From positions 1 through 64,000 of the forward strand of contig VCJN01000458.1 in NCBI GenBank assembly GCA_006384855.1: 64,000 nucleotides of DNA, written 5' to 3'. Under the pieces are notes generated by a model, which saw only the letters and a list, made by a program, of their open reading frames with translations, was not told where the DNA came from and searched no databases. The stretch is from Tetraselmis striata (taxonomy: Eukaryota > Chlorophyta > Chlorodendrophyceae > Chlorodendrales > Chlorodendraceae). A program made the position numbers and the translations under genes. Below, one piece after another: positions 4,798-47,247 of the stretch (position 1 is its first letter; each line of letters begins with the position of its first letter).

Positions 4798-4943
4798 TTT
4801 ATGTTGGCAGTGGGAGAGGAGGTCAAAACCGGAAACGGAGTGTAATCGGAGTGTTAGCGGGAGTGTAAACGATATGCTTATTCGGAAAGTCAAAGGCAAT
4901 ATGATGATAGGTGACGACTGTTGTGGACACTAGGAAACGGGCG

Positions 4944-19949: not shown

Positions 19950-20012
19950 CGCCGGGGAGGACAGGTAGACTGAGCCACGACGGGGGTGACTTCTCCCCCG
20001 ATCCCCGTACAG

Positions 20013-20404
20013 GGTGTTTTCCCGCGGCGGTGGCAGCCGCACCGCGGTGAGGGCCACCCACAAGATGCTGGGCGACAACCTGCAGATGCTCAGCACCAAG
20101 GCGAGCCCCCCTGCCTACATGCACGCCTGCCTGCCCGTCCGCCTGCGTGCTGGCCTGGCTGTGTCATTGCGTGCTGGATGATGGCTTGGCTGAGTCTGCC
20201 CCAAGCCAACTCCTGCTCCGTCGCTGTCCCCCCCCCCCCCCCAGGAGCGCAAGCTGGTGGACTCCCTGGCGGCCACCGGCTACGGACACCTCTTCCGCAG
20301 CTGGCCGCGTGCCGGCACGCGCGACAATGCCAAGCGCGCGCTGCTGGTGGCCGCCGCGGGCGGCATGGACGAGCTGGCGGCGGGGCTGGAGGCGCAGCGC
20401 CTCG
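20013..20404 (+). pseudogene. UDP-sugar pyrophosphorylase-like N-terminal exons (two exons)
   Basis: Exon one (20,013-20,100; ATG at 20,065) ends STK and is followed by a GC-type donor (GCGAGC). Exon two (20,245-20,404) follows a C-tract and CAG. The product reads MLGDNLQMLSTK, ERKLVDSLAATG, then GHLFRSWPRAGTRDNAKRAL. NL-LLS, HLF-xx-WP and the G-x-x-D-x-x-K spacing match the start of plant UDP-sugar pyrophosphorylase, which makes UDP-sugars from sugar-1-phosphates. No catalytic part (the Gly-rich nucleotide-binding loop) follows; oligopeptidase B comes next. Exon two ends in phase 1 (CTC G, then GTGAGA) and the first certain oligopeptidase exon starts in the matching phase, so splicing together is possible. 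It is either a gene fragment or the 5' end of a chimeric transcript. Confidence 0.45.
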
Positions 20405-20770
20405 GTGAGACCCCCCGCTGCGTGCTCCGAGCCGCCTCTTTCACGCCGCCGCGCCGGCGCCTGAGTGCTCGTGCTCGCCAGTGCAAGGAGTGAGCGACTG
20501 GGTTGCCAATGTGGTACGGCGCCAGCGAGGCGACCGGTTCATTCTCTGGTATTCTCGAACAAACAATCAACTGGGTGGCTCGGAGGGCTCGCTGGGCGCA
20601 GCATAGGAGGACGTCGTCTATCCATGCTACTTCGCTACACATCGCGCGTGGTGATGCGTCATGCGATGGGGTTCATGCAGCGCCAGGCCCCAACCACTAC
20701 ATTACCTCAATTACCAAGTGGCTCCTTGGCAACAGGGGGAGGGGGCTAAGGGCAGCGCATGTAGCTGGGC
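20405..20770. repeat. Right part of the segment duplicated at 1-630
   Basis: Non-coding sequence matching 350-630: CAAGGAGTGAGCG, GGTATTCTCGAACAAACAATC, GCGCGTGGTGATGCGTCATGCGA and the tail near GCGCATGTAGC. Similarity ends near 20,770. Confidence 0.8.
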
Positions 20771-20954
20771 GCTGCCTTGTACCTCACCCGTGCCAGCGTC
20801 GATGGATTGCAGCGGCGGTGGGATAGTTGTATCGCTACCGATGAGGCCCAGTTGCCGTGTCCACAGCCGACACTCACGTGATGGATGCTGAGCCATGATC
20901 ATGGCGGGCAGCGCCCTCTGAGCCCCCCTCCCTCCCCCCCTCCGCCTTATGCAG

Positions 20955-23900
20955 AGGTGCTGCAGCCGCCTCAGCCAGAGAAGCGGCCGCACCAGCTCAA
21001 GGTGCCTCATGCCCCCCCCCCCCCCCCCTCTCTTTCCGTGCCTGCCCAATATTAAATGGCACGGCGTGCTGTTCGGCGCCGCTCCCCCTTCCGTTATCGC
21101 CCCCCATGGGGGGAGGGAGGGAAAGAGAGGGGGAGAGGGGGTATTGAGCGGGGCGATGCGCGGTGGGTGTGTCGGCAGCACGTGGCGACGGGCGAGGTGC
21201 GCGAGGACCCGTACTACTGGTTCCGCGACGGCGAGCGCAAGGACCCCGACGTCATCGCGCACCTCAATGCGGAGACCGCGTACTGCAAGGCGGCGCTCGC
21301 GGACACAGAGGCGCTGCAGGAGGAGCTGTGAGCCCCCCCCCCCCCCCCTTTACCAGACTCCAGTGACTCTCAGCATGAAAACACGCATGAGGGGGGGGGG
21401 GGGGGTGCAGTTGTGATGGAGGCATTGTTCAAACATGCGGAGGGCTTGTGACCCGGCGCTGCCGGCGTGCCCTCCGACCCTGCCGGCGCCGCCGCCCGCA
21501 GGTACAAGGAGATGCGCGGCCGCATCCAGGAGGACGACGAGAGTGTGCCGGTGCGCGACGGCGGCTACTACTACTACACGCGCACCATCCAAAACACACA
21601 GTACCGGGTGCGCCCCCGCCCCCCACGGCCAGTCACCTGTGCATGCATGTGGATGGGCGCAGCATGTAGCTGCCTGGCTGCCGTCTTCCTGGGTCGGTGC
21701 ACCTGCATGGATGCTGCGCCAGGGGGAAGCAGCAGGGAGGTAGCTGCGCCATGGTCATCCCGCCGCGGATCCCGCTGGGGCGAGTGCGGTGCCCGGGTGT
21801 AGGCGCCCACCTAGGCCGAGGCCCAGGTTGGTCCGCTGTCAGGCTGAGTGACGGCGCGGCGCGCAGGTGCACTGCCGCCGGGCGGTGCCGGACCCGTCTC
21901 GCCCGCCCGCCATCGGGGACAAGCTGGACACGGAGCAGGTGCGCCGCGCCGGTGGGGTGGTGCCACGCAGGAGGAGGCGCCTGGGGTGGGGGTCACGGGG
22001 GGGAGACGGGGAGCGCGTGGGCGGGTGGCAGGGCTGACCCGCTGTCGGCGCGGGCTGGTGTGTGGCTGCGCAGAAGGAGGAGATCCTGCTGGATGAGAAC
22101 AAGGAGGCATCGGGGCACAGCTTTTACATGGTCGGCGCTTTTGAGGTGCCCCCCCCCCCCCCCCCCCAACTCCCCCCCTCTCCCCTCCCTCCCCACCTCG
22201 TAACACCCCCCCCCCCCCCCACACACACACACACACTGACTCACTGACTAACAGCGCACCACTTTCCGCTATTGTGCCGCCCTATCAGCCGCCAAATGCT
22301 AGACGCGCCTTTAAGTGGTATCATGACCTCATGCCAATGACATATACCCTAGTTAGGGTATATCTGGCTTAACCCCCGTAGCGCCGGCTGCCCAGCGGTG
22401 ACCTTTGTATCCGGCGCCCTCTTGTAAGCCCTACAAAAGGCAGGGTCCGGGGCTAGGTTGTTGCACTAGGTTGCCCCCCCCCCCCCCCCCCCTCTCCCCC
22501 ACCTCTCTCCCCCTCCAAAACACACACACACAGCCACACAGCCAAACAGCCACACAGTCCTGCTGTTGCGACAGAGCTGGCGTGACGTCCCTGACCGGCA
22601 CGGCTGCCTTGCCCTGCGCGACAGGTGTCGCCCGACCACAAGCTGCTCTGCTACGCGGTGGACACGCAGGTGCGGAGGTGCCCCGAGCGGCTCATCCCAG
22701 CCGTATCCATCGCGGCATGCAAGCAGGCGGAGTCTGCAGTAGTCCACTCGAATGAGAATTTACGATATGGAACTTTTGAGACATCTGACTGCACCAAACT
22801 GCTGCGTTGCGATGGGATCGCGATGGACCTCGCCTTGTGTCTATGCTATGACCACGTACCCGGACGATGTCTTTCATCACATGCGCTGCTGTGAAGAGGC
22901 CATGCAGTCATCGCAACATCGTATATGCGAACCTGCCGGGACGGGGATGGTTTGAAGGGAGGGGGGGGGGAGGGGGGCAGATTGTGCCGCTTTGCCAAAT
23001 TAGGACCGCTCTGCCGTGGCTGACCACATATTGCGCTGATGGGCTCCGATGACAGGGCGGCGAGAAGTTCACGCTGTACGTGAAGAACCTGCAGAGCGGG
23101 AAGCAGCTGCTGGCAAAGCCCATCCCCGACACGGCGGGCGACGCGGTGTGGGCCAACGACAACAAGACGCTCTTCTACGTGACCAAGGACAAGCTGGACC
23201 GCCCCTACAAGGCAACCAGTCCCCCTCCGGCCCCCCTTCGCTGTGTTTTCCCACCCCGCTGATACATGGAGCACCGCCGCTGGACAGAGCGACGGCATGT
23301 ATTGACCCGTCATGGTCGGGAGTGTACTCTGCCCGATTCTCCTTTGCGCGTTGTCCGCCTTAAGGTTCGGCCACTCCAGCTGGGCGCTGGCCGCCGTGCG
23401 ACGATGGCTGAGGGATTGATGTGCGCAGGTGTGGCGGCACACCGTGGGGAGCACGCCCGGGAGCGATGAGCTGGTGTTCCATGAGGAGGTGCGGACGCCG
23501 CTCGCCGTGTAGCTACACATCCCTTGTGCCCCCCCTCCCCCCCCCCCCCCCCCCCCCTCCGGTGCCCCCCCCCCCCCCCACCGACGTGCCCCCCCCCTCC
23601 GTCCCACACCACAACGCCAAGACACCGTGCCCCGATATCTCGTATTTGTCTTCAATATCGCATTTCTACCCGCCTCGAATCACCATTTGCCAGTTGTGCA
23701 AGTACATACATCGAACTCTGTATGACATCAGCGTCAAGTGGACCTGCGGCCTATCACACGATGTGGAATTGTCTTAAGATCGTAACATTGACGCAACTTG
23801 CCCGGATATGTGCTGCCACATGCGTGCACTCTTCCAACACTCCCAAATCAATCCGCCGCACTCTGGACGATGCCATAACATAACGCACGTAACGCTACTG

Positions 23901-26900
23901 CACAAATAATGTTGCTAATATTTATCGATTACGGGTAGGTAGTGCCATCCTCGTGGTGCCGGTGTATGTGATTTGCTGTGAGGTCGTGTATGATGGGTTC
24001 AGGTACGAGGACCCTAATAACCTGCCTTGTTACCCCAATACCTTGTTACGAGAACGACCCGCCAAGGCTTTAAAATATGGACATGAAGATTGTACAGTTG
24101 CAACCGACTTTATATCTAGCCATCTATACCTAGTGTCAAATATGCTGCACGCACCTTCCTAGTATGTATACCTTCCTAGTCTATACCTTCCTTGTATATA
24201 GACGGGAGAGATCCCCATCGTAGATAGGGAGCAGATTGTACCTGTATCAAAGCGAAGTTGTGTAGCAATACTATCGGCCGGGGCGAATAGGAGAGGTACC
24301 TGGTAATGGTGATGGTGATTATGGGCCAAGCAGGTGCGCCCTGCCTTCGGTGTGGGCGCGCAGTAAAGAATGCCTTCTGCCAATAAACTGACGTGTAGTA
24401 AAGTATAGTAACCCGGAACCAGAGCCCGACCGCAGTGTATCCAGATGGTCACCTAGGCACGTGCAATCCTCCGCAGTCCCCATCCTCGCACCACCCTAGG
24501 TCAGGCCTAGCCCATTTGATCATTGCGCCATTCGCACCCCGGATGGCCAATGCGCACCCGTGGGGTGCCCCGGAGCTCGTGATTGCGGGTATTGATGGGC
24601 CAGGGTTCGAACCAGGATCTCTCAATCACTACGAGCACGGACTCAGGCTCGACATCTCAACCAATTCACAAACGGAATCACCGGCCAGCAACTCCCCCCC
24701 CCCCCCCCCCCTCCTCCCCCCACCTCCCCCTTGCCACGTCATGCTGTTGCGCTGCTGACCCTTTGGGTGCGGGCTGCGCAGGACGAGGCGTTCTATGTGG
24801 GCGTGAACCGCTCCCGCAGCGAAGACTACATCTTTATCGGCAGCGGCAGCGCCGTCACCAGCGAGGTCCTCTTCCTCAACGCCAACCGCCCCAACGGCAC
24901 CTTCAAGGTCACCCCCCCCCCCCCCCCCCCCCCGTTCCTCCCCCCGTTACCCCTCAAAAGTTCATTGTCTGACATTGTCATCGTGACTCCACATCATTCT
25001 GGGCAACCGGGCCAAACCAGCGCGTTCTGATGTTCACTTCACCATAAAAGGGATAGCATCCACCGATTTTGCCCCCCCCCCCCCCCCCCCTCCGCCAAGT
25101 CCATGTCTGGCTTGCTCATAGCACACATTCACGCGGTATCCAGCTCATGCGATTCTTCCTGACTCATCGTAGCAGTGGCCTTCGGGCTGTCTTGGGCAGT
25201 AAGCTGTGGCGCCCTGATCTATTCCCTAGATTTCCTGCTCAATATACAGGGACACTGATGTTATGTCATGTCCATTCGCATAACTTTTTATTTGGCTAGG
25301 CCAGTCTGGCGGATGCCCTTGCCATCTGGGCAATGCTCATCTAGACCGCCTGCGGATGTCGTCGGTTCCAGAATCAGCAGTTGATCTCATTGGGGTATCT
25401 ATACCAGGGCTGTACCAGCCCTGTCATTTGGGGTGGAGCTCCCCGGAAACCAGTGGCAATCGGCACTCGGTAGCCTTTCCTGGCGATGCAACATCCTGCG
25501 CTGGCTAGTAGGGTAGCTGCTTGCATGTATTGACATTGTGCGTGTTTGTTGTGGATGTGAATCTGGATCCGGGTGGCAGTAGTAGTAGTAGCAGTAAAGT
25601 TCGATCGGTTGTTGGCATTCGCAGGCGGTGCTGCCTCGCGTGAACGATGTGGAGTACTCGGTCACGCACCGCGGCGCGCACTTCTACATCACGCTGCGCG
25701 ACAAAGACCGCCCCAACAGCGAGCTGCTGGTGTCGCCGGTGGAGGAGCCGGCCGCCACCGCCGTCCTGATGCCCCACCGCCAGGAGGTCAAGGTAGAGCC
25801 CCCCCCCCCCCCCCCCCCCCCTCTTTCCCCGAGAAATGCCGTTGCTGAGACGTCAAATCATGTGTCGGTGGCATCTATCAAAGTGTGTCTTTCATCAGGC
25901 AACCCGCTGAAGTTGCGCCACCCCTTCTTTGGCACCCTGACATCGGGTGTCGCTGGATGATGCTAATGATGGTGGCTGTTGTGAATGCCTTAATCCGATG
26001 GGCGTTGCACCAGCATTGCCTTCTGTGATGCCATCGGGCGTCTTTTGCCGGACCAACCGCTCACTTCGAAACCATCTGCCATTCCCTGTTTCCGTCGCTG
26101 TTATGGTGCATGGATTGCGGAATCACCGCCCGTCATCTCTACGGAGTCACGATATTGTAAATAGCTGTATTAGGGGCGCTGTGCTATTGAGCCAAAAGGC
26201 AGCGGCACCACGCAATGTGAGAGGGTGGCGGCATTCAACTACACCGCATGGGAACCCGCCGTGATTGCGCATCACTGCCTGACGTGATATAATGCATCCT
26301 CATGGTCGCTCACTTGTCCATGGCGGCGCTCGGCATGTTCCAGATCGAGGGGGTCTCCCTGTGCAAGGACTACATCACCATGTTTGAGCGGAAGAAGGGG
26401 CTGCAGGTAAAACTGGTCCAGAATAGCCCCCCCCCCCCCCCCCTTTGGAAATTGCATTGTCATTTCAGGGCGATCGACCCCCCCCCCCCCCCCCCCTTCC
26501 CCCCCCCCCGGGAGAGCCTGAGTCGAGACTGTGCGGGGCTGTGCTGTACTATGCCTCCAGGTGGCCACTGTGTACGGGCTCCCTGCCGACGGGTCGGTTC
26601 CCAAGCGCGAGCAGCTGGCACCGTGGGACGGTCGCGAGGTGGCGATGGACCAGCCCGCCTACGAGCTGTCCTCTGGAGCGCAGGTGCGCGCGCCGCGCTG
26701 CCTGGCGCGCATGGACTCGCGCCCCCTTCAGCGCAGACGGCGTCTGTTTCTGCGACTTCTACACATCGAATACCCGTGGCGTTGAGTCATGTTTCCTATT
26801 CTCGACATCTAGACCATGCAACTACTCTTCCGACACGTGGTCCTCGTGCAACCTTATCTACACGTCGGTCGGCTGTCTGTGGATACCGGTATATCGACTC

Positions 26901-29900
26901 ATTGCCGTAGCGCGAGGTAGAGTTCGAATCACAAGCATCACTCGATCCCGGGAAGCATTGGGCGAGAAGGATCGTTTTCCATTGTATCGGAATCTGCGAC
27001 GTCTACACATGTAGTACCTGTAGCGACTAACCCCGAATAATGTTTCATATTCTCGACATCTACACTATTACAGTATTTCTCTTCCGAAACGTGGCCCTCA
27101 TGCAACCTTTTATACACACACGTCGCAGTCGCCCGTATGTGGAGATCGGTCTTTCGACACATTACCGCACCGCGAGGTAGATTTCGAATGACAAACATCA
27201 TTCGATCTCGGCAAGCATCGGGCGGGGAGAATGGTTTCATTACCCGTATGTCGGAAATTTGACAGTCACTTTGGCAGGCCAGTCCGGCCGATGCTGCCGT
27301 CAACCGATATATTCACTACTCGTATCGCGGATGTATTCATTACCCGCATCGGGAATATCTGGCGAGTCGGTGGTATGTGCGTCGTCGACAAGCGCTTCTG
27401 GACGATGTCTTCTTTCAGGTGGGCGTAGGCTGCGCTTTTCAGTTCTTAGTGCTCCCACGGATCGCAGCATCGACTTGCGAGAGTCGAGCTGTCTGGGCAC
27501 CGTCTGCGACCCTGCCAGCTGATGCGGACGCTGTAATGTTCTGACTTCGCAGGGCGACTTCGACAGCAAGGTCCTCCGTCTGGTGTTCTCCTCGCTGGCG
27601 ACGCCCACCAGTGTGATGGACGTCGACATGGTCAGTATGGAGCGGCAGGTGAAGAAGGTGCAGCCGGTGCTCGGTGGCTTCGACCAGAACAAGTACAAGA
27701 CCTTGCGGCTGTGGGCGGTGGCCGAGGACCAGACTAAGGTGAACCCCCCCCCCCTCCCCCTTCGTCTACCTCCCTCCTTCATTCGCCGCATTGCGTTCGC
27801 AGTAGCTTCTGCTGTGGGCGCAGCAACTAGCCCAGCATCGGAGGGGGAGAAATACCCCATCGGAAGCAAGCTGCCGACAGAGTGATATGGAGCGGCGGCG
27901 TAGCTTGTTTGCCGCTCTGCGCGGCAGCGTTTAGGCTGATGCGATACACGATCGTCGACGCTTTCGTCTCGCGCCGTCGACCGCCAGCCACATCGCTGCA
28001 TCCCGTGCGGACGGGCGACGACTACGACGGCTCGTCGACCGCTGTTCCCGGGGCGGCGACTTACGGCTGATGCTCGATCGAAGTCGTGTCCACCCACGTA
28101 ATTTCATGTCCAGTTTTGGACCTGCTTGCGCGCTCGACGACCGTTTCGAGCAGCGGCAGCCCTTTTAGTCTTTTCCTTATAATCTAGTTTAATCTGCAGG
28201 TTAAAAAGAAACTGTAAACTCCTTTGGCACACCGAGTACATCCCATTTTCGTCTGGGACAGAGTGATGTCGGAATGAGCTCTGCCATTCAAAGCTGGCGG
28301 TGGCGTACCCGTGCTGGTGTAGCTGACGCATGCATGCACCGCGCTGGATGCAACGCTCAGGTGCCCATCAGCCTGGTGTACCGCGAGGACCTGGTAAAGC
28401 TGGACGGCAGCGACCCCATGCTGCTCGACTGCTACGGCTCCTACGAGGTCTGCAACGACCCCTACTTCTCCTCCACCCGCCTCACGCTCATCGACCGTGG
28501 CTTCGTCTTCGCGGTGGCGCACGTGCGCGGCGGCGGCGAGATGGGCCGCCACTGGTGGGGCGAACCTCCCCTCAAATAATACAATATTCAGAACCCCGGG
28601 AAAGACAGAAAGAATAGCGCAATAGCTATATTATAAGTACATCAAATATAGTGTATATTACTGAGACCGACCCAATTCCGCATATTACATTTAATTCAGA
28701 TAAAAATATATATTCCTTTCATATTGCTATATATGCAATATTACAATGAAGTGATTTGAAGTATCACTATCTGATAACGTGACATAATACCTTGAACTCA
28801 TCAAAGGGCACAAGTGGTAATAGATTGCCGCTTGAGGCGCCCACTCGCCGCTGCGCGCCCAGGTACGAGGACGGCAAGTTCCTCCACAAGAAGCACACCT
28901 TCACGGACCTCATCTCCTGCGCGGAACACCTCGTGCGCGAGAAGTACACCTCGCCCGCCAGGCTGTGCATCGAGGGGCGCTCCGCGGGCGGGCTGACGAT
29001 GGGTGGGTCCCCCCGCGCCGCCCTCTGCGGCACAGGAGGCCATCTTGGGCCTGGCATGGCAGCCCTGTGTCCCATCACTGCCTCTCCAGCGCCACTCCTG
29101 TGCCTGTGCGCTGCGACATCCCAGGCCCGCCACACTCATGCTCCCCTCAATAGCCTTTGTTCATTAATACCCTTTAAGTAGAGAGCTTCGGCAGGAAGTA
29201 CCAACTGACGCAAATTAGCGCCTAAAAAAATGCATCGCCCTGTTTTGAAGATGGAACTGGAGTATATATGATGAAAAGGAGGCGAATATATATGATGTCA
29301 ATTAAGGGCAAGATGAACGAGGCTCTGACTTGTCCTTGAGATTGAGCTAATCAGTGATACAAAGTCAAATTTCCGCCACTATGGTTTTAGTGAGTTCAAA
29401 ATGGATAAACATCTAAGATTGGTAGAAGGAGCTTGTGTATCCATACGTGTATGTGTAAAGATGTTCTAAAAAATGCGGTGAAGATTAGCCAACTACCTCC
29501 GCTCTGAGGATGGGCCGGCCAGCTGGCGCCGGAGCACTGTCCCTCCGTCGTCTGAACCACGCCCCCCCCCCCCCCCCCCCTTCCCGGGCCCTGCAGGCGC
29601 GGTCCTCAACATGCGCCCGGACCTGTTCAAGGCGGCGATCATGGGCGTGCCGTTCGTGGACGTGCTGACCACCATGCTGGACGAGACCATCCCGCTCACG
29701 GCAATAGACCCCCCCCTACGTTCCCCAGTGAAACAAATACATACATGTGTGCGAGTGTGTGTGTGTGGGGGGGGGGGGGGGGGGGGATGTCATTCGTAAG
29801 TAGCCAGGAGCATTCCGCAATTGGGTATCACTGCCACCCAACTGGGGACTTCAAGCAGGCAGCTACAGTCACACGCAGATATGTCTGCCGTATGTACATA

Positions 29901-31848
29901 GTAGTAGTCATAACAATCAAGCATTGGTAGCAATATACGTGCAGATGACGGCGTATCTTTGTCTACTTATTGTGGGAAGAGGGGCGCCCGGCGCAGTGTC
30001 AGCAATGTCCCTCCATTGCGTCTGCGGGCCGGCCACTGCCCGCGTGATTGCGGGACGGTACTCTGCCACGCCGGCGAGGCGCACGGCTGACGCGCCGCGA
30101 TGCTCGCCGCGCAGGTGATTGAGTTTGAGGAGTGGGGCAACCCGGCGGAGGCGGAGTACTACCACTACATGAAGAGCTACTCGCCCGTGGACAACATCCA
30201 GGCGGCGGCGTACCCCAACATCCTCATCACCGCCGGCCTGCACGACCCCCGCGTGGGTCAGTCCCCCCCCCCCCCCCCCCCCCCAACCGTCCCAATAAGT
30301 GAGAATCTATAGTTGTATGGCGGATAGAGATTGAGGATTGATTTCATGCAATCCTTAGGTCGTGTGTGAGCGGGCCGAATCAAGATACTGCCATGCCGTA
30401 CGGTAGTCAAATGGCATAACGCCAAACGGTATGCATTGCCAGCGCTACAGCCGCTAGTTGCGATATATATAGTCGCCTTACGGTATATCCACTAACCCAG
30501 TTACCATGGTCATATGTACCGGACACCTACGGCATTATCATTGCGAAGACGCATACCCCCAGATCGTTGTCTGATTGATTCTGTAAGTTCACCACATTAG
30601 CATTGACATTAACATATTTATTATACATTACATTCGCCAGCGACTCCGAATCAGTATCGTGGATTCGGCAGGACGAATTACGAACAGATGTCGAAGCATC
30701 TCTAGAATCTTCAGGTGGGGGATTTGTAGGTCCTGGTACGTGACGGAACGTTTGCTGATGTGGCACTTCAAGAATTAAAAACAAAAAAAAGGGGAGGCCG
30801 ACCCCCCCCCCCCCCCCCCCCACACACCTCCGGGCAAAGCTGAGGCAAAGGGCTTTTGGTTTTAGGGTTTTAGCCCACCATGCCATCATGCGGACGAGTG
30901 AAGCGCCTGGGGTTATTGAGCAACAGCAGCCCGGAAGGGTTTCGGCGTAGGACTTGGGGCTTCTACATTAACCCCAGACTCTCTGCTCCAAACCCTGAAC
31001 GCCCTACCACGAAACGCCTTTTACCCCCTCTTTCGCGCGTGGTGCGTCCAGGCTACTGGGAGCCCGCCAAGTTCTGCGCGCTGCTGCGCGAGCAGAAGAC
31101 CGACGACAACTTGTTGCTGTTCAAGTGCGACATGGGCGCCGGCCACTTCTCGCAGTCGGGCCGCTTTGACAGGTGCGGGCCGGGGCCGGGGCAGCCGCCC
31201 TCCCCCCTCCCCCCTCCCCCCCCCCCCCCCCCCCCCCACACTCGCCTTCCACTCCCACCCCCACCCCTGCGCGGGCCTTCATGGTGCCGACGCGGTGACG
31301 AGAGAACTGCGCCCCCGAAGCTGCCCCGACTGCCCAAGCTTGGAATGTCGACATTGGGCGGCCATACAATAAATAGCCCCATGGGTCGATGCGAGTATGC
31401 AACCCGCACTTTGGGGGCTTCTGAGTAGCGGCCAAGTTGTTATTGCCGCGAATGGGTGGGCGCACCTAGCAAGTGGGGGTGGTATTGGGAGTGTCGGTAC
31501 CTGGGTACCCAGGTTAAGCTCCATGTGTAGGGACACCCTGGACCTGCGACCCACGAAAAAAACCCTAAAAACCCGACCCTAGCACACGCCCCCATCATCA
31601 CGCAGGGCCTAAGAGCTCCCGGTGCCCATTCCTCGAGCATATGGTACCAAGCGCAGGAGTCGTGCCATGTTGGGGCGGGTACCTGCGTGGATAGGCGGGC
31701 GCCTGCCTGCCCCGGCGGAGTGGCTGACTGATTGACTGACTGACTGGCCGCCCGGTTGGGTGGATGGAGCAGGCTGAAGGAGGTGGCGCTGGAGCACGCC
31801 TTCCTGCTGAAGTGCCTGGGCATGCTGCAGACGCCGGCGGCCAAGTAG
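20955..31848 (+). CDS. Oligopeptidase B (S9A prolyl-oligopeptidase family)
   Basis: Serine peptidase cutting short peptides after Arg/Lys. Exons: 20955-21001, 21179-21327, 21502-21607, 21867-21938, 22074-22145, 22625-22669, 23056-23211, 23429-23488, 24782-24907, 25625-25792, 26344-26406, 26561-26683, 27553-27738, 28361-28554, 28863-29002, 29597-29700, 30115-30256, 31052-31172, 31773-31848. All phases agree, giving about 715 residues, normal for the family. The beta-propeller comes first ([20 protein letters not shown]) and the hydrolase after about residue 450. Catalytic Ser562 lies in GRSAGG, Asp647 in LHDPRVGYWEP, His682 in [10 protein letters not shown]; the spacings of 85 and 35 are those I recall for known oligopeptidases B. 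EFEEWGNP, linked to basic-residue specificity, is present. The start is unsettled: an in-frame ATG at 20,885, or splicing from an upstream exon (a pyrimidine tract precedes 20,955). Introns 7 and 16 use GC donors. No targeting signal is certain. Confidence 0.92.
24603..24663 (-). repeat. tRNA-like A-box/B-box pair (SINE head or pseudo-tRNA) in intron 8
   Basis: On the minus strand TGGTTGAGATG (24,653-24,663) fits the A box and GGTTCGAACCC (24,603-24,613) fits the B box, about 47-50 nt apart as in tRNA promoters. The T-arm nearly folds (one mismatch), but the flanks do not form a 7-bp acceptor stem, so a functional tRNA is unlikely. A tRNA-derived SINE or dead tRNA is the better reading. Confidence 0.4.
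26785..27262. repeat. Diverged tandem duplication of about 230-250 bp inside intron 12
   Basis: Two units, about 26,785-27,010 and 27,036-27,262. Shared landmarks in order are TATTCTCGACATCTA, CTCTTCCGA-ACGTGG, CATGCAACCTT or variant, CGACNCATTRCCG, GCGAGGTAGA-TTCGAAT, GCAAGCATYGGGCG. Divergence is considerable, with several indels. Confidence 0.75.
30857..30876. repeat. Interstitial TTTTAGGG-type motif
   Basis: GGTTTTAGGGTTTTAG within intron 17 of the oligopeptidase gene. Matches the Chlamydomonas-type telomere unit TTTTAGGG. Related motifs lie at 31,556-31,581 and 36,497-36,820. Confidence 0.6.
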
Positions 31849-36040: not shown

Positions 36041-39000
36041 TCGCTGTCAAAAAATACGCGTCGCTACTCATGTACACTACAACAGCCACAGGTTGTCGCG
36101 CCAAGGCACTGCTGTGGTGCAGGGCCGCCGCTGCCGCCCGATCGTTCGCTATATGTGTAGGATACTACCGTGCGCAGTGTAGTACAATGCAGTACAGTGC
36201 GCCCACACCAAACTTCAGAGGGGCTGCAACAGTTTGGGATGGTCGCAAGGGCATGAAACAAACCCGGGTGCGTTCCTCTTGGGGAGGCACGTTTCCGCAT
36301 CGGGAAAGGCGTGGCGCGGGCTCATGAGTCGGCGGTGCTGGAGGCCGCCGGCATCTTGGGCAGCACCGGAAGCAGGTAGTTTCCAAAGGGGGAGTCGAAC
36401 GCTGCGCAAAGCGGCGGCGACGGCAGCGCAGCGGTCAGCGCCTGGAGCGATAGCCGTACTCTACCTGCTATGGATGAGGGGCTCTCGCTGTACCCGAAAT
36501 TAGGGTTTTGTGTTAGGGTTTTACCCCTATGCGGTGCCAGCCTGCCCTTTGCCCACTGTATGCGTCTAAATATCGCCCGCCTGGCCGCCGGACGGCTCCT
36601 GCACGTGAGGTTCTCTCCTAATTGTATCTCCCTCTCTCTCAATGCAGCGGTCGGGCCGGCGGGGCAGCAAGGGGGGGGGGGGGGGGGGGGGGGGGATTTC
36701 AAAGAGGCTTTGGCCAATAGTCGCAGGAGAGCAAGACCCAGGGCGTAGCCCACCCCCGGAGCAACTCGGCGAGATCGGGTTTAGGGTTTATGATTAAGGG
36801 TTATAAACCCTAAAAACCAAAGGACTATACAATCCGCCCGTTGCCCGTCAATTCATCCCCATTTCAAAGTCAATGCCCAGGCAGACAGTGCGGGGCAGCG
36901 CGCACCTAGGTAGTAGGCGGTGGCCTTCTCCGCCTGCGCCAGCGCCGCCTTCTTCCCCTGCGCCGCCCACACCCAGCACGCCCGCCGTCAGCCCCTGCCG
37001 CAGCCCCGCCCATGCACTTCATGCCCGGCAGCCGCACACCCCACCCCCCCCCACCCCCTGGCTTCGCCTTTCTCCCCCCCGGCCTGCCGGTGGAGCGCGC
37101 CGCACCTTCTGGATCTCCGCCTTGTGGCGCTCCGATATCTCCCACTTGTCCTTCCCCTGCCAGCCCGCAGGCCCCCATCAGGTCATGGGCTTCCCAGCAC
37201 CTGGCAGGGGCACAGACCCCCCTCCCTCCCGCCCCTCGTGGCGCACTTGTTGTAAACAGAGGAATGGGAGAGCAGGGGGGGGGGGGGGGGAGGGGGCCAC
37301 CTGCTGCTGCGCAGCCGCCTTTGCTTGCTCCGTCTTCACCACCACCGGACCGGTGCGCCTGCCATCATCGAGGGACACACGCGTGCATGCCGTCACGGCG
37401 TCACGCGGGTGCGCAAGCAACCCACCCAAAGGGGAAGGTGGGGGGGAGGGGGGGCTCACCTGGGCTGGGTAACGGGGCCGCCGACGCCGCTGGGCCGCAG
37501 CGCCTCCTCTTTCGCGCGCTTTATCCGGGCTGCGTCACTGCGGGCGGCATCACGCAGTCCGTTGGTCTCTCGAGGGCAGAGCGCGAACCGTGGTGGGAGT
37601 CGCCCAGAGCAGGAGCAGGATGGCACGTGTGCGCAGCAACCAAGCAAGCGAGAGAAGGGGTAGGAGAGACCTCACATGGAGCTGAGGGCGGTGCTAGGGC
37701 ATCACTGCCTCCCACGCTTAGTGTGACACAGCTGATTCCTTGAACAACCCAAAAATACTCGACAAACAATTCGCCGACCGGAGTTGTGGCACTGCGAGGC
37801 GGTCATTTGGCTTGATGGCCCGCGCGAAGGCGGAGCTGTCGCCTACAAATGCCGACGGGGCGAGCTGTAGCGGCTATTGACTGGATTGCTGCCTCGTGGA
37901 TACGCTGCAGTTTTTTCGCTGTTACCTATCCTGTCCCGGGGGCGAAAAAAAAAGGGGAACCGGTCGACCCCCACCCCTCCCTCCCTCCTCCACCCCAACC
38001 ACCCCACCCCACCCTCGGCGCATTGGGCTGAGGACTCGGAGGTACCTGGCGCCCGGCGGCTCGTCCCGCTTGCGCTTGCCAGGTTCGTCTGCCATGGCGC
38101 GCCCTCACCTAGCCGCCCTCCGCGCCACGACGACAGCGCCTGCCCGAGGCGCGTGCCGGGTGGGCGCGGTATGGCGTGAGGGGTGGAGGGTCGGTAGAGG
38201 GCGCAACCGGCCGGCGCAGAGTGATGGTGGAGTGGAGGAGATGGCCGGGGTAGCCAGATAATCCTGTCCGCAGCTGCTGTCGGAAGAATATCCGGGCGCT
38301 GCGCCAAATCCGGCGGGCTGCAGGGGAGCAGTGACAGTGCCGACGAGGGCTATCAGCAGCGTGGAGGGAGGGGGCTGTTTGGGGATGCGGGAGCCGAGTG
38401 AAGTGGTGTGCCCTCAGCCCCGCAGCAGGTCATGGCGCAGCCTCGTTACAAAACTTATCGGTGGTTCGATATGAGGGCTAGGATGACGACAGGCTGCTTG
38501 CGGACCCACGGCGGTGTCCCCCCCGCCGTACCAGTAGTGCTCTAATTCTGGGGAACTGCCTTTTTTGTAATTCACACCAGTAGTGCTGTAGCGACTACCT
38601 GTAGGTTGAGGAGCTGCGATTCTGCACGATTGCGCGGCGCGGCGGCGGCGTGGCATGTAAAATACTTCGAATAATCTTACATCATGATCGATATAATATA
38701 CGGACTTAATAGGATTTTACATGTCGTCATATTTTATTGGATCGGATTTCATTTACTTTATATTGGTACTACTCGGACTGTTGCACATGCCCTCTATTAA
38801 TATATTTATTTGCCAAGCTCCCGGGTAATAGGATGTTGTGGGTACGCAAACACAGAGTACATGGTAAAACATACCGATGCCCCCTTGCGCATGTGCGCGT
38901 GCGCACCTTACAGGTAACAGCGCGACCACACGGCCAACCTGTTGATTGGATGAGTGACAGATGCAGCCAAGCTACGGTTGAGCACTTGCATGAGCGGGTC

Positions 39001-39515: not shown

Positions 39516-40262
39516 TCACATCAATGACACCAGGCGTGTCACCAGCTCCATGTAGTCGATGTACCCGTCATTGTTGACGTCAGCTTCTTCGAGCAGCTTC
39601 TTGGCAACATCTTCCTCCATCGGCGCGGCCCCAGTTTTGGTTAGCAGCTTCAGCAGGACGTCCGAGGACACCTTGCCGGTGCCATCCTTGTCCAACGCCG
39701 AAAAAGCGGCCACGAGCCCCTCCTGCGATGCCGACGTGTTGGCTGGTGGCTCCATCATATGCTTGCTCATCATCTTGAGAAACTCCGTCCACTCAATCTT
39801 CCCGTCCTTGTTATAATCTCCCTCCTCAAACATGGTCTGCAGCTCCTCCTGAGTGGCGGTGTACCCCTGGGACAGCAGGCACTTCTCCACCTCCTCAACC
39901 GTGATGCTGCCATCCCCGTTGCGATCGTACAGGTTGAACTTTTCCTCCAACGACTCCAGGAGTGATTCACTGATGGTATGGTACAGCTCCTCGTCCGGCG
40001 TAGGCTCCTCCACGCCCCACTTCTTGCACATCTCCGTAAGGAAGTCGCGCCAGACGACACGCTCCTTCCCCGCAAACAGCGCGTCCATGGTGCCCTGCGG
40101 GAGGCGGTACTCGCCGTTGTCCATCAGCGTGAGCATCTCCTTGCGGCTGATGGACCCGTCGCAGTTCAGGTCCAGCCTGACGAAAGAGTCGCGCAGCTTC
40201 CCAATCATCTTCCTCCTCCGCTGTTCTGCTTGCTTCTGTCCGCCGAAACCACCGCGTGCCAT
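39516..40262 (-). CDS. Six-EF-hand calcium-binding protein (calmodulin-like superfamily)
   Basis: A 248-residue intronless protein. Canonical calcium loops are visible at residues 31-42 (DLNCDGSISRKE), 113-124 (DRNGDGSITVEE), 149-160 (DYNKDGKIEWTE) and 228-239 (DVNNDGYIDYME), each with Asp at positions 1 and 3 or 5, Gly at 6 and Glu at 12. The loop at 191-202 (DKDGTGKVSSDV) lacks the Glu at 12 and probably binds weakly; a degenerate unit around 60-77 pairs with the first loop. Six units in three pairs is a calbindin-like count, not calmodulin's four. The N-terminus is basic (QKQAEQRRRKM) and might contact membrane or target. The ATG at 40,262 is used because upstream in-frame codons have no ATG. 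Likely a cytosolic calcium sensor or buffer; the target is unknown. It lies head-to-head with the methyltransferase gene, 1.5 kb away. Confidence 0.88.
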   Translation of the reverse strand: MARGGFGGQKQAEQRRRKMIGKLRDSFVRLDLNCDGSISRKEMLTLMDNGEYRLPQGTMDALFAGKERVVWRDFLTEMCKKWGVEEPTPDEELYHTISESLLESLEEKFNLYDRNGDGSITVEEVEKCLLSQGYTATQEELQTMFEEGDYNKDGKIEWTEFLKMMSKHMMEPPANTSASQEGLVAAFSALDKDGTGKVSSDVLLKLLTKTGAAPMEEDVAKKLLEEADVNNDGYIDYMELVTRLVSLM

Positions 40263-41743
40263 CTCGTCTGTCGCCGATCGCCGACTGCTCTGAAAAAAAC
40301 TACTCGCGCGCGGGCAAGAGGCGTTCACGCCGGTTGCTGCACGGACGTTCCCGGGCGCCTTCTTTTGCTGTTACGCAAAGGCACAGGCGAAAGCACTGGC
40401 CGCAGCACCGCAGACGGATGGCCGCGTTGGACTGTGTCGGCCCGCAGGTTTCAGTACGTACAGACTGGGCGTGGGTAGGGTTGTGAACGGAAGTATGCTT
40501 ACGGCGTTATGGGGTCGGTGTGGGTGTGAGCAGCGGCATGTCGCTGTATCCGCGCCGCGCGCCTGCGCGGTGCCCTGTACAGGCTGTAATGCTTAGCATC
40601 ACCATAATTTATCGGTACTGGTGGTAATCCTTACCAGAAAGACGGCAAGTACGGCTACCACAGCACCCGAGTACTCGTACCAAGGATTCCCCCTGCGCGG
40701 CTGCGCGCGTCCTGGCAACGTCGCACGTGCGATGCAGCAAATGTTAATTACATCAGGGCTTTCCCAACCGCGCACTACAAACATGCAGCAAATGTTAGTC
40801 GCGATTACGGACACCCTGTAACCAAAAAGATAAAATTACGGACACAACAGTCCTTTTTAACATTCCAAGCAGGGTCTCGCGGGTTTGCGACTGTAGAAGT
40901 ACGACTACTAGACGAATTATTGACGTTTCATAACGAACTATCCGTTTAGTGAACCAAATCCCGAACTCAAGAATCCGGCCATGTCGCGCCATCGGCCCGT
41001 CATTTGAGGGTGCCTTCCCGAGAAAGTGTCACTTCGCGGAGTCGGCACCTCCATGCAGCAGAGCAATCGCTTTCAGTTCCGGGATTGTCAGCGTTAGTTA
41101 GTGTTTCGGTGAGTCTTCGTTATTCCACCCGCCGCTGTGCGGTACCTGCAGCGTAAAAACGACAACCCCAAGTACATTATTCCATCACCTTAAACATTGC
41201 TCGAATTCTAAATAGGATTGCTATGGAAGTCTCCGCGTACGTATGTAGCAACAACCGGCGAAAAACTCGTCAGCATAAATATTGGACTACACGACACATT
41301 GCGCGTACATATCGTCCTATATTTTAAAATTAATTAAGTCGTTTTGCGCCGCCAGTCGGCCAGCCCGCCGTCAAGCAGTGACGGAGGGGCCGTCGTCGAG
41401 GGTGTCGAGCGAAGCGCCGCCACCTTGCTCAAGGCACGGGCCTCCCGGCCGGCCGGCAGCGCACAGCAGTTAGCGACTACCTTATCGGTACCAAGAGCTG
41501 CACCATCGTGAATACAGCGCTGTTTGGCACTGCTGCCCCTGAATCTGCCCGCCTTTGCGTCGGTGCCGCATCCAGCCTCGCCAGCCCCCCGAGCACACAC
41601 CTCCGATCAGCTGTCGTCAACGCGCCCCGATAGGAAGCAGCATCGAGCTCACCCCCGACTGCTCTGGCCGGCGAGCTGTCGCACCCGTTCATCCACACGA
41701 GGGTGCAGGCGGGTGCTTCACATTCGAGTGGCTGCGCGGAGGG
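40263..41743. other. Divergent intergenic region between EF-hand and methyltransferase genes
   Basis: Holds the 5' flanks of both genes. No TATA box stood out. Short repeats of ATGCAGCAAATGTTA occur near 40,731-40,800 (two copies). No coding sequence seen. Confidence 0.5.
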
Positions 41744-43273
41744 ATGGCTGCTTCACTCGAGCAGCAGGACCCCCCCAGCAGTCCCGGGGCAGCGCACCGA
41801 GCGGGGCCGGAGGAGGCCAACTCCCAGGGCAGCGCGGACAGCAGCGCTTATGTATTCCAGCTATGGGCCAGCACCGGCGGATTAGCGGGCAACCAAGATG
41901 AGATATGCGCCGGGGATGACGTCTTTGTGAGCTTGCGGTCTGATAAAGACACTGGGAAGGCGAAAGTGCTTGAGGTGATTGACGACCCAAAGCACAGGTA
42001 CCACGGGAGAATGAAGGTACCGCCCCCAGAACACCCCGCCCCCTGGAGTCTGCGGTGATGTCAGGAGGGCTGCACGCGCGCAGCCGCCACCCCCTGGCTT
42101 ACAGATGTGACTGGTCCTGTCCCCACCAGGTGCTGTACTATGATGGCTCAGGCCACTACCATGTGCGGCCAACAAAGATGACAAAGGTGCGGGTCGCCTC
42201 TGGTTTGCTCTCATCACTGCGTGGCCACATGCCCCCCGCGGCGACACATACCCTAATTATCTCAGCAGCCGGCGGTGGCATGCAGATTCACTATGGTGGG
42301 CAAAAGAAGGTTCTCATCGTGCCAGAGACATCTGACTTCCGGATCATGGCGAGGTGGGCGGTTGCCCCCCCCCCCCCCCCCCCCCCGTCTCCACCTCTCC
42401 ACCTCTCCGCACTGGCAGTGTTGGCGTGGCGCCACTGCGTGCAGCTGAGTGTCTGCGCTCAAGGGGTGTGGAGGTGTTCTGTACGCACGCGTGATGGCGC
42501 GGCATGTCATTCAGGGCAAGGAACCCCCGCTGCCCCGCCGCAGGACCCAAATCGAGGCGGACGACCGCGTGATCGACATCGGCAGCTCGTACGGGGTGTG
42601 CACCAACATCCTGGCGCAGTACTGCCGGAACAATGTGCTTGGCATCGACATCGCCCTGGATATGGTGACGGCCGCGCGGGAGCGCTATCCCGAGCAGGAG
42701 TTCGTCCAGTTTGATGCGCTGGAGGAGCGGCAGCGGCTGGTCCAGGCGTGCGCGGGGGCGGACAAGGTTTTCCTTGACTTGGGCGGGAACAGGCCGATGG
42801 AGTCCATCGTCGCGCTGCTGCCCGTCCTCCTGAGCGCGGTCGGCCCTGCGCTGGTGGTGGTAAAGAACAGGGAGCTGGCAAAGTACGCGCTGAAGCACAT
42901 CCAGAACTGGGCGGGGGATGCGGCCAGCGCGGGCGTTATCGTCAGGCACGAGGAGTGGTGGCGGAACATGGAGCTGCACTGCGAGCAGCTGCGCTCCCAG
43001 CGGGGGGCGAAGAAGCCGTCCCCGTACCAGCTGGCGGAGTACAGCGGGGTGGCGCCGGTGCGCTTCTTCAAGTACCCGCTCCACTACAAGCACCGCGAGA
43101 CGGCGGCGGGGGTGCGGATCTGCAGGTACTACAACTACGGGGTCTGCCCGGATCCGGCATCCTGCAGCTACGACCACGGCCACTGCCATCACTGCGGGGA
43201 AGCGGGCCACATAGCGAAGAACTGCCTGGCCGGCATCCCCCGCCCACCCCCGCCCACGGCGGCGGCTCGGTAG
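41744..43273 (+). CDS. SAM-dependent methyltransferase with CCCH and CCHC zinc fingers
   Basis: Exons 41744-42016, 42130-42186, 42286-42353 and 42544-43273 join in phase to 375 residues. The first 130 residues have no family I recognise (YVFQLWASTGG, GDDVFVSLRSDKDTGKAKVL, VLYYDGSGHYHVRPTKMTK). Motif I of a class I methyltransferase is VIDIGSSYG (142-150), followed by VLGIDIALDMV with the acidic residue expected to hold the SAM ribose, and VFLDLGGNRP later. The C-terminus has a CCCH finger (Cys326, Cys334, Cys340, His344; spacing 7-5-3) directly followed by a zinc knuckle (Cys347, Cys350, His355, Cys360). CCCH and CCHC fingers usually bind RNA, so an RNA substrate is my inference. The ATG at 41,744 is the first in frame before the conserved part; upstream in-frame codons lack ATG. 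Intron 3 starts with a long C-tract. Confidence 0.85.
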
Positions 43274-45398
43274 ACGGGGGTGGTCTTTCAATTTTAAACT
43301 GGCCGGAATCGCCTGTCCATAGAGTGGGTTCTCCTGCCGGTAACTCTGTACGCTGAGAGGTTTCCCCGACCGGTTTCGGTCCTCCTGCCTTCCTACCATG
43401 ACTATCCTGTCAAGCTGGCTGCTCAGCAGCAAGAACGGCACTCAACTGCGGACGAAACAGATATTTCCATTATCAATAAAGATATTCTTTACCCGAAACC
43501 AGCCCAGGCACCCTGAACTCAACGCCTGCGGGTGGGACAGCTGCCATCAGCACCGCGTGGAATCCCTGGTATCCAGCCGTATTGCATGCCTGTGCTTGTT
43601 TGTCGATGCACCTGCCTGCTCTGGACAACCACCCCACATAGCGCTACACCCCTCCACAAAAGTCATAGCCCCCTTTCTCGTCCGCGCTTGCGAATAGCAG
43701 GGCAGCTGAATCTAGGGTTTGTGACCTGAAAACCTGGAAGGTTGCACATTATGCTCAGCCTTTGTCACCATAGGGTGTAAGCAAGCCCTTTGGCCCTAAC
43801 AAGTGCCCTACAGGACTGGCACTTGCGCCACACTGAGCGTTTCCAGTGTACCCCCACAACAACGGGGGTTGGTGCCCCGCACGCCCCGCCGCGCATGCAT
43901 CGACCATTGCATGGTGGGATGGCCATGGGTGGGCGAGGAAACGTGCCAGCAAAGAGGCTAGGAGATTTTTGGGTGGGGTGGGGCCATAGTGGCGTGCGCC
44001 CGTGCACGATGTGGCATGGTACCATCGCCATAGATTGCAGAGCTGCCTTGTGGTGCAGCTCTCAAACTCGCGGTATCGCTGAGTGCGTTGCGAGGAAACG
44101 TCGGAAAATTTTCACATAAATGCCAATGAAATCAACGCGAGCATGGCTACAACTTATCCACCTCTGGCATGCGGTCGTCTGAGAGGATTTAGGCAGTTTT
44201 CGATCTTTTAGAAATAAGAGGTCGAAATATGACGTCTGTGTCAGGGTGTGGTCGACTCACACATATTGGCGTGAAACTTTACGCTAAGTGGATCTCAAAA
44301 CCTGATACACGATGGCGGGACAGTTTGTTGCATGTACTCATGCACGGACTTGGCACATGCCCCCCTTGAGCGATACCCACGGCCGCCATGCCGCCCCCCC
44401 CCCCTTTCACAGCATTATTTCCACCAGCATCGACGCATCAAGGTGCACGCGATTGCCGTCCCACTGGGCTCACTGGCTCATGCGGCCAGGCACTACTATA
44501 GACCCTGGGTAACATGCATGCACGCGCGCACGGTCTCAGTGTAGCCGCGCATGGGCATGTGGATCGAACTCGCAAACCCCATAATTATGTGGAGGGTGTA
44601 GTTATGTCATGACAAAACAAACCACCCCACGTCCCATTTCTGCACAATCCTGGTTTTGACCCCCACCCCCCCCCCACCCCCCCCCCCCACTCCCCGCCCC
44701 GAGATGATGGCTTTATTATTTTTAATCACCCCCCCCCCCCCCCCCGCTCCTCCGTGCGCGCGCGCGATAAGGTACTTACCAATATCGCCGACCGGTGTGG
44801 GGTGGTTCATGTCCGCAGCAAATGTTGCTGTCTCAATCGCACTTATCTAACCGGTACCACTCGCCATTGCTCAAAGGCACTGAACAAGTGGATATATGCC
44901 CCCGCGACGAGTAATTTAAGACATGGGACGACGGAAAAGAATTGTGAATGTAACCTCCCCCCCCCCCCCCCCCCCCGGGCAGGGAGTCAAAGAACGTATA
45001 TAAACTTATTATATTAGATCATCGCGGATTTCAACAAAATATTACACCCTTGCACGAAAGTCTGGGTTTCGCGCGTCCAACTTGCCTATACGTCGCATCA
45101 TCGACGAGGCCGAATGCGCATGCCTCGAGACGACCAAGCACCGTTTGTCACATGCATGCTACTGAGGGTATGCCACCTTCGGGCAAAAAAGCTTTGAAGG
45201 CGCGTCATGCTCAACCGGTCATCGCCGCAATCGTTGCCGAGCGCTTTTTCAATTTCGCGAACTAAACATTAGTGTGTGGCGATATGGTGCTGCAAAACCA
45301 CATGTTAAGCTATCCGTGCGCATCAACAGCAATGCGAAATACCTGCCACCGTAATATTGACATCACGTCATCACCCTTTGCACGGTACTTCGCATGGT
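43274..45398. other. Intergenic, no gene recognised
   Basis: No domain-bearing frame. C-runs at about 44,395-44,404, 44,666-44,687, 44,729-44,745 and 44,958-44,976. The left target-site duplication of the LINE lies at the right edge. Confidence 0.5.
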
Positions 45399-46128: not shown

Positions 46129-47247
46129 CCGTCTGTCGCATTGGGAGCGTGGTGACCTAGACACGTTGTTCGCCCTCGCGCGTACGCATGCATCTGTTCG
46201 GGCTACTCCTCATGATTACGTGGCTCCGACGTCGGCCATTTGTGGGGACCCACCGCCGGTTACCAAACGCCAAGCTGCTCGGGCCTCGGCTTTGGCCGCG
46301 GTGGGCGAGTACAGCCGCGCAGCTGCCGCCCTTCACTCAGTCCCGCTCGCGCCCACTGGCCCGCGGCTTCACGAAGAGCTCCTCCGCTTGCATCCCCAGA
46401 CCCCAGACCATGTTCCTTGCGCGCTCCCGGATCCGTTCTCGTTGGACCGCCTCACTTTCCCTGGAGCTTCGGTGGACGTTTGCGAGGTGTTGTCCAGCAG
46501 CCCCAATGGTTCTGCCCCATTCCTCGATGGCATCCGCTTTGAGGCTCTCCGTGCCCTCTGCTCGCGCTCCCACCTCCGTGGCATAGCCGAGGCCATCGCG
46601 AATGCCATCTGGTCCCTGCTGGCGTCGCCCATTTCCTTTCCTCTGCTACCTTGGTTCCCCTAGATAAGCTCACGCCGGCGGAGCGCAATGCGTTGGAACT
46701 AAGTGCCGGAGACATGAAGGGGTCCATTCGGCCCATTGGCATTGGCAGCGTGCTTGTCCGGTTCGCTATGCGCGTCCTCTTGCGCGCTCATGGCGAGCCC
46801 ATCGCCCAATGGCTTGCCGCCCGCGGCCAATTCGGTTTTGGCGTTAAGGGTGGAGTGGAACTAGTTCAATTCCTTGTGCGATCTCTCCTAGACTCGGATC
46901 CATCCCTCGTCTTGGTGCAGCTTGACGCCGAAAACGCGTTCAATTCCTTCTACCGCTCCGAAATGTTCCGCACACTGCTCGAGGACCGTGTTTGGCAGCC
47001 TCTATTGCGTTCGGCGACAATGCTTTATGGTCAAGAGTCCAATATGTACGTTTTCGACGGCTCCCAACCCGGTCCTTCTCTCCGGATTCCAAGCCGTCGA
47101 GGGACCCGCCAGGGTTGCGTCCTCGGCCTCATCATGTTCGCCGCCGTCGCTGCCCGAGTGTATGCTCGCATCGGCGCGGCTGCCCCCAGTCACTCAGTGT
47201 TGGCGGCTTTCTCAGACGACGTCAACCTTGTCGGCACTGGCGAATGA
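46118..47247 (+). pseudogene. LINE ORF, reverse transcriptase part
   Basis: Continues the LINE ORF first in one frame (46,118-46,663), then in another (46,651-47,247). Diagnostic RT motifs: IRPIGIGSVLVR, FGFGVKGGVELVQF, VQLDAENAFNSF (motif A with the first catalytic Asp), RRGTRQGCVLG (motif B) and FSDDVNLVG (motif C, where the FSDD Asp pair is catalytic). The downstream thumb region reads VSSSGIKVLGAPVG in a further frame near 47,400. The active-site residues are intact although the frame is not. Confidence 0.82.

Follow-up and report, generated by a model that had tools for sequence, protein, structure and literature searches.

Here we report that long runs of C lie just inside the 5' splice sites (donors) of many introns in a 64,000-nucleotide (nt) stretch of the Tetraselmis striata genome (contig VCJN01000458.1, positions 1 to 64,000; the window), and that their orientation follows transcription, the run being C in the RNA whether the gene lies on the plus or the minus strand. 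Within the window this donor-side pattern is far beyond chance, as a preliminary description of the same DNA had proposed, and it comes mostly from the gene for oligopeptidase B (OPB). The analysis covered this one 64-kb window and five genes with 40 introns, which were inferred from reading frame and homology: 18 in OPB, 10 in a WD40-RRM gene, 5 in the gene for SOSS complex subunit C (SOSS-C), 4 in an R-SNARE gene and 3 in a methyltransferase gene. Two further introns, in a pair of pyrophosphorylase-like fragments, were left out of the 40-intron tests because the acceptor of copy A of this pair is provisional; they enter a single count below.

Position and strand of the C-tracts

The position of the tracts was compared with a null in which the interior of each intron was rotated (5000 rotations), counting introns with a run of at least eight C starting no more than 20 nt from the donor. 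Nine of the 18 OPB introns have such a run, against 1.33 in the null, as do 11 of the 40 introns of all five genes, against 1.88; in neither case did any of the 5000 rotations reach the observed number. It is C-runs, and not G-runs, that crowd at the OPB donors, and they do so at every minimum length tried, from four up to eight. Introns of the other four genes, 22 in all, behave similarly at the lower thresholds: within the same 20 nt, 8 have a run of at least four C (3.27 expected, P = 0.004) and 6 a run of at least five (2.18 expected, P = 0.007), with P = 0.030 for at least six and P = 0.025 for at least seven; only 2 have a run of at least eight (0.50 expected, P = 0.08). None of these 22 introns has a run of at least four G in that interval, where 1.94 would be expected. 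Tracts show no comparable clustering near acceptors, with 1 intron against 4.0 expected.

All ten OPB introns previously singled out (introns 1, 2, 5, 8, 9, 10, 11, 13, 17 and 18) carry C-runs of 11 to 23 nt that start 3 to 48 nt after the donor (Table 1); the shorter forms in introns 3, 7, 15 and 16 (C5 to C8), the tract in methyltransferase intron 3 and the lack of tracts in the R-SNARE gene were also found as described. The tract claimed for WD40-RRM intron 1 is weak, amounting to a C5 at offset 10, with a C8 lying past 50 nt. The statement that the run is never G holds beside the donor, where no G-run of at least eight falls within 50 nt in any of the 40 introns, but fails farther in, since sense G-runs occur in OPB introns 2 (G15, offset 63), 6 (G10, offset 291) and 16 (G20, offset 66). 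In introns 2 and 16, the G-run, 63 to 66 nt from the donor, faces a C-run, so that a long hairpin might form.

The orientation of the tracts is best seen in SOSS-C, a minus-strand gene absent from the preliminary description and found by reading the minus strand next to two plus-strand G-runs. Two of its five donors carry a tract that is G on the plus strand and C in the RNA; intron 4, with a sense G9 at offset 53, is a counter-example. The minus-strand gene thus obeys the sense-C rule: the strand of the tract follows transcription, which points to splicing or to the nascent RNA. Sense runs of at least eight number 25 C against 4 G in the 40 introns (P = 1e-4), and 27 against 4 when the two pyrophosphorylase-like introns are included, whereas, of the window's 50 runs of this length, the 19 that none of these gene models contains read on the plus strand as C in 11 cases and as G in 8 (P = 0.65).

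Table 1. Coordinates of the C-tracts and of the genes that carry most of them
Feature	Coordinates	Strand	Start (nt past donor G)	Intron position	Details
OPB gene	20955..31848	+			19 exons, 18 introns; exons 2-19 firm, start codon provisional
OPB intron 1 (21002-21178), C17	21012..21028	+	10	+11	
OPB intron 2 (21328-21501), C16	21333..21348	+	5	+6	sense G15 at 21391-21405
OPB intron 5 (22146-22624), C19	22149..22167	+	3	+4	also C15 at 22206, C19 at 22474
OPB intron 8 (23489-24781), C21	23537..23557	+	48	+49	also C15 at 23565, C9 at 23589, C18 at 24694
OPB intron 9 (24908-25624), C22	24912..24933	+	4	+5	also C19 at 25072
OPB intron 10 (25793-26343), C23	25799..25821	+	6	+7	
OPB intron 11 (26407-26560), C17	26427..26443	+	20	+21	also C19 at 26478, C11 at 26499
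OPB intron 13 (27739-28360), C11	27744..27754	+	5	+6	
OPB intron 15 (29003-29596), C19	29562..29580	+			acceptor side
OPB intron 16 (29701-30114), C8	29709..29716	+		+9	GC donor; sense G20 at 29767-29786
OPB intron 17 (30257-31051), C22	30263..30284	+	6	+7	also C20 at 30802
OPB intron 18 (31173-31772), C22	31216..31237	+	43	+44	
Methyltransferase intron 3 (42354-42543), C22	42365..42386	+		+12	
SOSS-C gene	36342..38095	-			6 exons, 122 aa; PF15925, E 1.7e-7, above curated cut-off
SOSS-C intron 2 (37459-37359)	37440..37454	-		+6	sense GTGAG-C7-T-C7
SOSS-C intron 3 (37300-37157)	37275..37290	-		+5	sense GTGG-C5-T-C16, from +5; C16 is G16 on the plus strand
SOSS-C intron 5 (36905-36402), C25	36671..36695	-	210		sense C25, interior
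Pyrophosphorylase-like copy A, C23	141..163	+			GC donor at 136; GCGAG, then C23
Pyrophosphorylase-like copy B, C6	20106..20111	+			donor at 20101; C6 only; C15 at 20228-20242 by the acceptor

The OPB model is firm for exons 2 to 19: they join into 700 amino acids with no internal stop, and the product matches solved oligopeptidase B chains (best 2xe4_A, E 2.5e-172). Of its third codon positions, 94% are G or C. Its intron 12 holds an internal direct duplication of about 245 nt (26749-27237, 75.5% identity). The splice ends of the five gene models are GT-AG in 37 introns and GC-AG in 3; no noncanonical ends of the Euglenozoan kind occur among the 40, in models built with GT/GC-AG ends in mind. 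With both pyrophosphorylase-like introns added to those 3, the share of GC donors seems high.

Short seeds, a C-rich zone and tract lengths

The preference for the donor is not confined to long tracts. Among introns whose first 68 nt are free of long C-runs, runs of four to seven C near the donor number 9 in seven OPB introns (1.5 expected) and 16 when methyltransferase and SOSS-C are added, for 13 introns together (5.35 expected), with G-runs at expectation; the 13 WD40-RRM and R-SNARE introns of this kind have 4 (1.77 expected, P = 0.06). Once long runs are masked, the C fraction in OPB, methyltransferase and SOSS-C is 0.48 at +7 to +26, 0.36 at +27 to +46 and 0.22 at +47 to +66, so that the excess is gone by about 45 nt from the donor. 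The G fraction over the same intervals is 0.25, 0.24 and 0.34. G therefore does not drop in the zone where C is raised, and C has been gained at the expense of A and T rather than G. The wider feature thus seems to be a C-rich zone rather than a homopolymer, although the composition test alone is non-significant outside OPB: with runs masked and introns of at least 100 nt considered, C exceeds G at +7 to +40 in 16 of 18 OPB introns (P = 0.002), in 4 of 7 methyltransferase and SOSS-C introns (P = 0.28; one of the eight is too short) and in 9 of 11 WD40-RRM and R-SNARE introns (P = 0.06; three of the 14 are too short).

The lengths of the tracts tell a second story. The window holds 28 C and 11 G homopolymers of at least 12 nt, numbers that base-to-base statistics would put near 0.02 and 0.008, respectively. 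Its 37 C-runs of at least eight fall into two groups, 11 of 8 to 13 nt and 25 of 15 to 23 nt, with one of 27 nt. Homopolymers grown by slippage would have a bimodal distribution of this kind, and slippage therefore probably sets the length of the tracts. The preliminary description had argued for a link with splicing or co-transcriptional structure rather than slippage; the non-random donor position and sense-C strand support the first half of that argument, whereas the lengths speak for slippage after all. The R-loop that it had invoked finds no support, since R-loop formation is disfavoured when the transcript is C-rich.

The pyrophosphorylase-like segment is present twice on the plus strand (1-620 and 19958-20780), and copy A lacks an exon-bearing stretch found in copy B. 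The name is that of the preliminary description, and a Pfam search of the fragment gave no match. Both copies share the GC donor AAG-GCGAG; in copy A, the C23 that follows is succeeded by about 45 nt of pyrimidine-rich sequence, whereas the C6 of copy B runs straight into the intron sequence common to both. Toward the acceptor the situation is reversed, copy B having a C15 where copy A has a broken C-rich stretch. The donor tract reported for both fragments is thus present in copy A but reduced to a C6 in copy B, and from this comparison it appears that tracts can differ between close copies while the seed persists.

Weighing the explanations

We favor, tentatively and at a probability a little short of even, a model in two parts, in which a C-rich zone at the donor helps splicing and the homopolymers within it have grown by slippage. 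The C-rich zone, which extends over roughly 40 nt from the donor and is most pronounced in OPB, would be a feature of introns across this genome and could perhaps be an enhancer-like site for a poly-C-binding protein. Short C seeds in the zone would exceed a length threshold and then lengthen by replication slippage to 16 to 23 nt, growth that would be tolerated because a longer C-tract does no harm to splicing and may even aid it. In favor of the model are the crowding of C-runs but not G-runs at donors, the short seeds, the composition of the zone with its undiminished G, the behavior of the minus-strand SOSS-C gene, the low frequency of +5 G beside OPB tracts (below) and the C6 and C23 at the paralogous donors. 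The zone, the strand rule, the seeds, the tract lengths and the contrast between genes are observed in the window, whereas the binding protein, the aid to splicing and slippage as the source of length are inferred. Human SMN2 intron 7 offers a parallel: Cs inserted after position 10 raised exon inclusion, the more so the more Cs were added (PMC8789036).

Several observations weigh against this model. The genes differ sharply: 9 of 18 OPB introns have a long tract no farther than 20 nt from the donor, but none of the 14 WD40-RRM and R-SNARE introns does (P = 0.0018). These 14, taken alone, are significant at no threshold (at least four C, 3 against 1.16, P = 0.085; at least eight, none), and it follows that splicing does not generally require the tract. 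Long tracts occur in intron interiors as well, and the pyrimidine-rich block that accompanies the C23 of copy A, absent from copy B, exceeds simple slippage. In SMN2 intron 7 itself, poly-C at P15 suppressed the exon, which the authors blame on a silencer formed with neighboring bases (PMC8789036).

A bolder version, which we consider unlikely, would see in the tract the equivalent, at the donor, of the polypyrimidine tract. In this lineage a dedicated factor that binds poly-C would recognize the tract as a signal, which would relax the need for a good match to U1 and be kept long by slippage. If this were true, splicing strength would be a fast-evolving, length-tunable microsatellite trait. 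The relevant evidence, which also bears on the two-part model, is the loss of G at +5 in OPB, where 2 of 9 donors near a tract have this base and 8 of the remaining 9 do (P = 0.015), or 2 of 7 and 8 of 9 when introns whose C-run covers +5 are set aside (P = 0.035). Across all 40 introns the figures are 4 of 12 and 20 of 28 (P = 0.037), but this P value rises to 0.23 without the three introns whose run covers +5, and outside OPB there is no contrast (2 of 3 and 12 of 19, P = 1.0). The difference was noticed on reading the donors and is post hoc. The total match to U1, scored against a 5' end sequence that we take to be universal, points in the same direction, with weaker donors beside tracts, but non-significantly (P = 0.11). 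We regard the loss of +5 G near tracts as a lead from one gene.

It is also possible, if somewhat doubtful, that the tracts have no splicing role: slippage homopolymers would be widespread, those with sense G would be purged because they disturb transcription or folding, and the position at the donor would track a C-rich intron start of other cause. The bimodal lengths and the 11 C and 8 G runs outside supported genes fit this explanation, as do the intragenic tracts of Caenorhabditis elegans, which have the same orientation bias (C on the coding strand in 84 and not in 47) and for which the authors suggest trouble in transcription (PMC2211496). The same source reports no bias in position within introns (PMC2211496), however, whereas the tracts described here are strongly biased to the donor, as are runs of only four to seven C, and not of G; moreover, the zone is not depleted of G. 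A review passage also speaks against purging of sense G on the ground of blocked transcription: the quadruplex able to impede the polymerase is said to be the one on the template strand (PMC10030826), the strand on which a sense-C tract places its Gs. Slippage accounts for length, and problems caused by G, whether in the RNA or in the non-template strand, could account for strand, but neither explains why the tracts lie at donors.

Structure is an improbable basis for the pattern. Base pairing between the C-tract and G-rich stretches elsewhere in its intron, or an i-motif facing a quadruplex, might act on splicing or transcription; in favor, OPB intron 2 combines a C16 with a G15 that lies 63 nt from the donor, and OPB intron 16 a C8 with a G20 at 66 nt. 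A pairing test on 20 introns with a length of 150 nt or more gave the opening 60 nt a nominally better mean with the intron's own last 80 nt (-36.5 kcal/mol) than with the ends of other introns (-32.8 kcal/mol; P = 0.0055, or 0.008 when OPB introns 1 and 2 are left out). An initial comparison, in which the own partner had a mean rank of 0.41, had suggested no effect. A few introns shorter than 260 nt (OPB 1, 3 and 7 and methyltransferase 3) carry that mean, however, and the own end is the better partner in only 10 of the 20 and in 4 of the 10 that have a tract near the donor. The last 80 nt contain similar proportions of G whether a tract is present (0.330) or absent (0.312), and a G-run of at least eight is present in just 2 of 9 near-tract OPB introns. 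The outcome for end pairing is mixed and shows no link to the tract, and we do not take pairing to be what the tract is for. Recently inserted introner-like elements with tracts at their ends are a very remote prospect: the tract does adjoin the donor, and copy A has an additional C and pyrimidine block relative to copy B, but no pair among the 40 introns shares sequence (E 0.01, with low-complexity filtering), the sole matches being internal ones within OPB introns 12 and 18 themselves. The assembly might be thought to have created the runs, for example from poly-G read ends, since homopolymer lengths in assemblies are frequently inexact. Such an artefact is scarcely credible; it could not follow the strand of the gene, and on both strands the runs fall within the introns of open, spliced models.

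Known systems and other features of the window

The sense-C bias and short C-rich enhancers on the 5' side of introns are each already known; it is the long, donor-set C-tract that looks like a new form. No report of long C homopolymers adjoining the donors of numerous introns appeared among the open-licence literature matches listed, as judged from titles and the starts of abstracts, which is weak evidence of absence. The poly-G/poly-C tracts of Caenorhabditis, a class that a FANCJ/DOG-1 helicase protects, resemble those in the window in being long (18 to 32 bp), greatly overrepresented, mostly intronic or intergenic, and more often C on the coding strand; the window likewise has long G and C runs far above chance and a sense-C bias. 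They differ in lying in a genome of 36% G+C, with a bias of about 2:1 and no preference for intron position, whereas here the ratio is 25:4 in 40 introns and the tracts are set at the donor (PMC2211496). The C-rich enhancers of SMN2 intron 7 and of chicken beta-tropomyosin, which involves hnRNP K, are also sense C-runs just inside the donor, and sense C-richness within tens of nt of the donor is what we found, though it is not significant in WD40-RRM and R-SNARE. Enhancers of this class go with weak donors, are bound by a poly-C-binding protein and, when mutated, support splicing less well. The SMN2 and beta-tropomyosin examples, as far as the available portions of the sources go, are single animal introns with short runs, unlike the runs of 16 to 23 nt here in many introns of one gene and in some others.

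In human cells, most C-rich tracts through which PCBP1/2 act precede the 3' splice site (644 of 686 motif-bearing exons; PMC4797308), which makes the mammalian precedent at the donor the thinner one. The GT/GC-AG introns of Euglena gracilis likewise carry a signal whose pyrimidine is C and not T, but their C-rich tract is at the 3' splice site rather than the 5' splice site (PMC11170887). A base skew tied to introns and to the transcribed strand is also known from human and mouse, where G is said to exceed C (PMC10030826); here, C exceeds G on the donor side.

Other features of the window include a reverse transcriptase domain (PF00078) at 46543-47244 on the plus strand, whose long open frames continue to 49371 and which is likely a retroelement, and two apparently intronless minus-strand frames, for an EF-hand protein (39516-40370) and an HSP20-family protein (4417-4929). 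Five plus-strand C-runs of 10 to 20 nt cluster at 44394-44976, in a stretch with no supported gene. An Rfam scan of the window gave no match at the gathering threshold, including none to snRNA or rRNA; protein scans of viral contigs for relatives confirmed none, and the pattern of a donor followed by C12 was found in no stretch of the viral contigs and as 12 raw matches in contigs of prokaryote genomes.

If the pattern holds genome-wide, two causes that have been mixed up would be separated, in that slippage may set the length of these tracts while something at the 5' splice site sets their place and strand. The introns of this organism would then provide a natural length series for the effect of a C-tract on the choice of 5' splice site, and homopolymer variation in T. 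striata could amount to variation in splicing.

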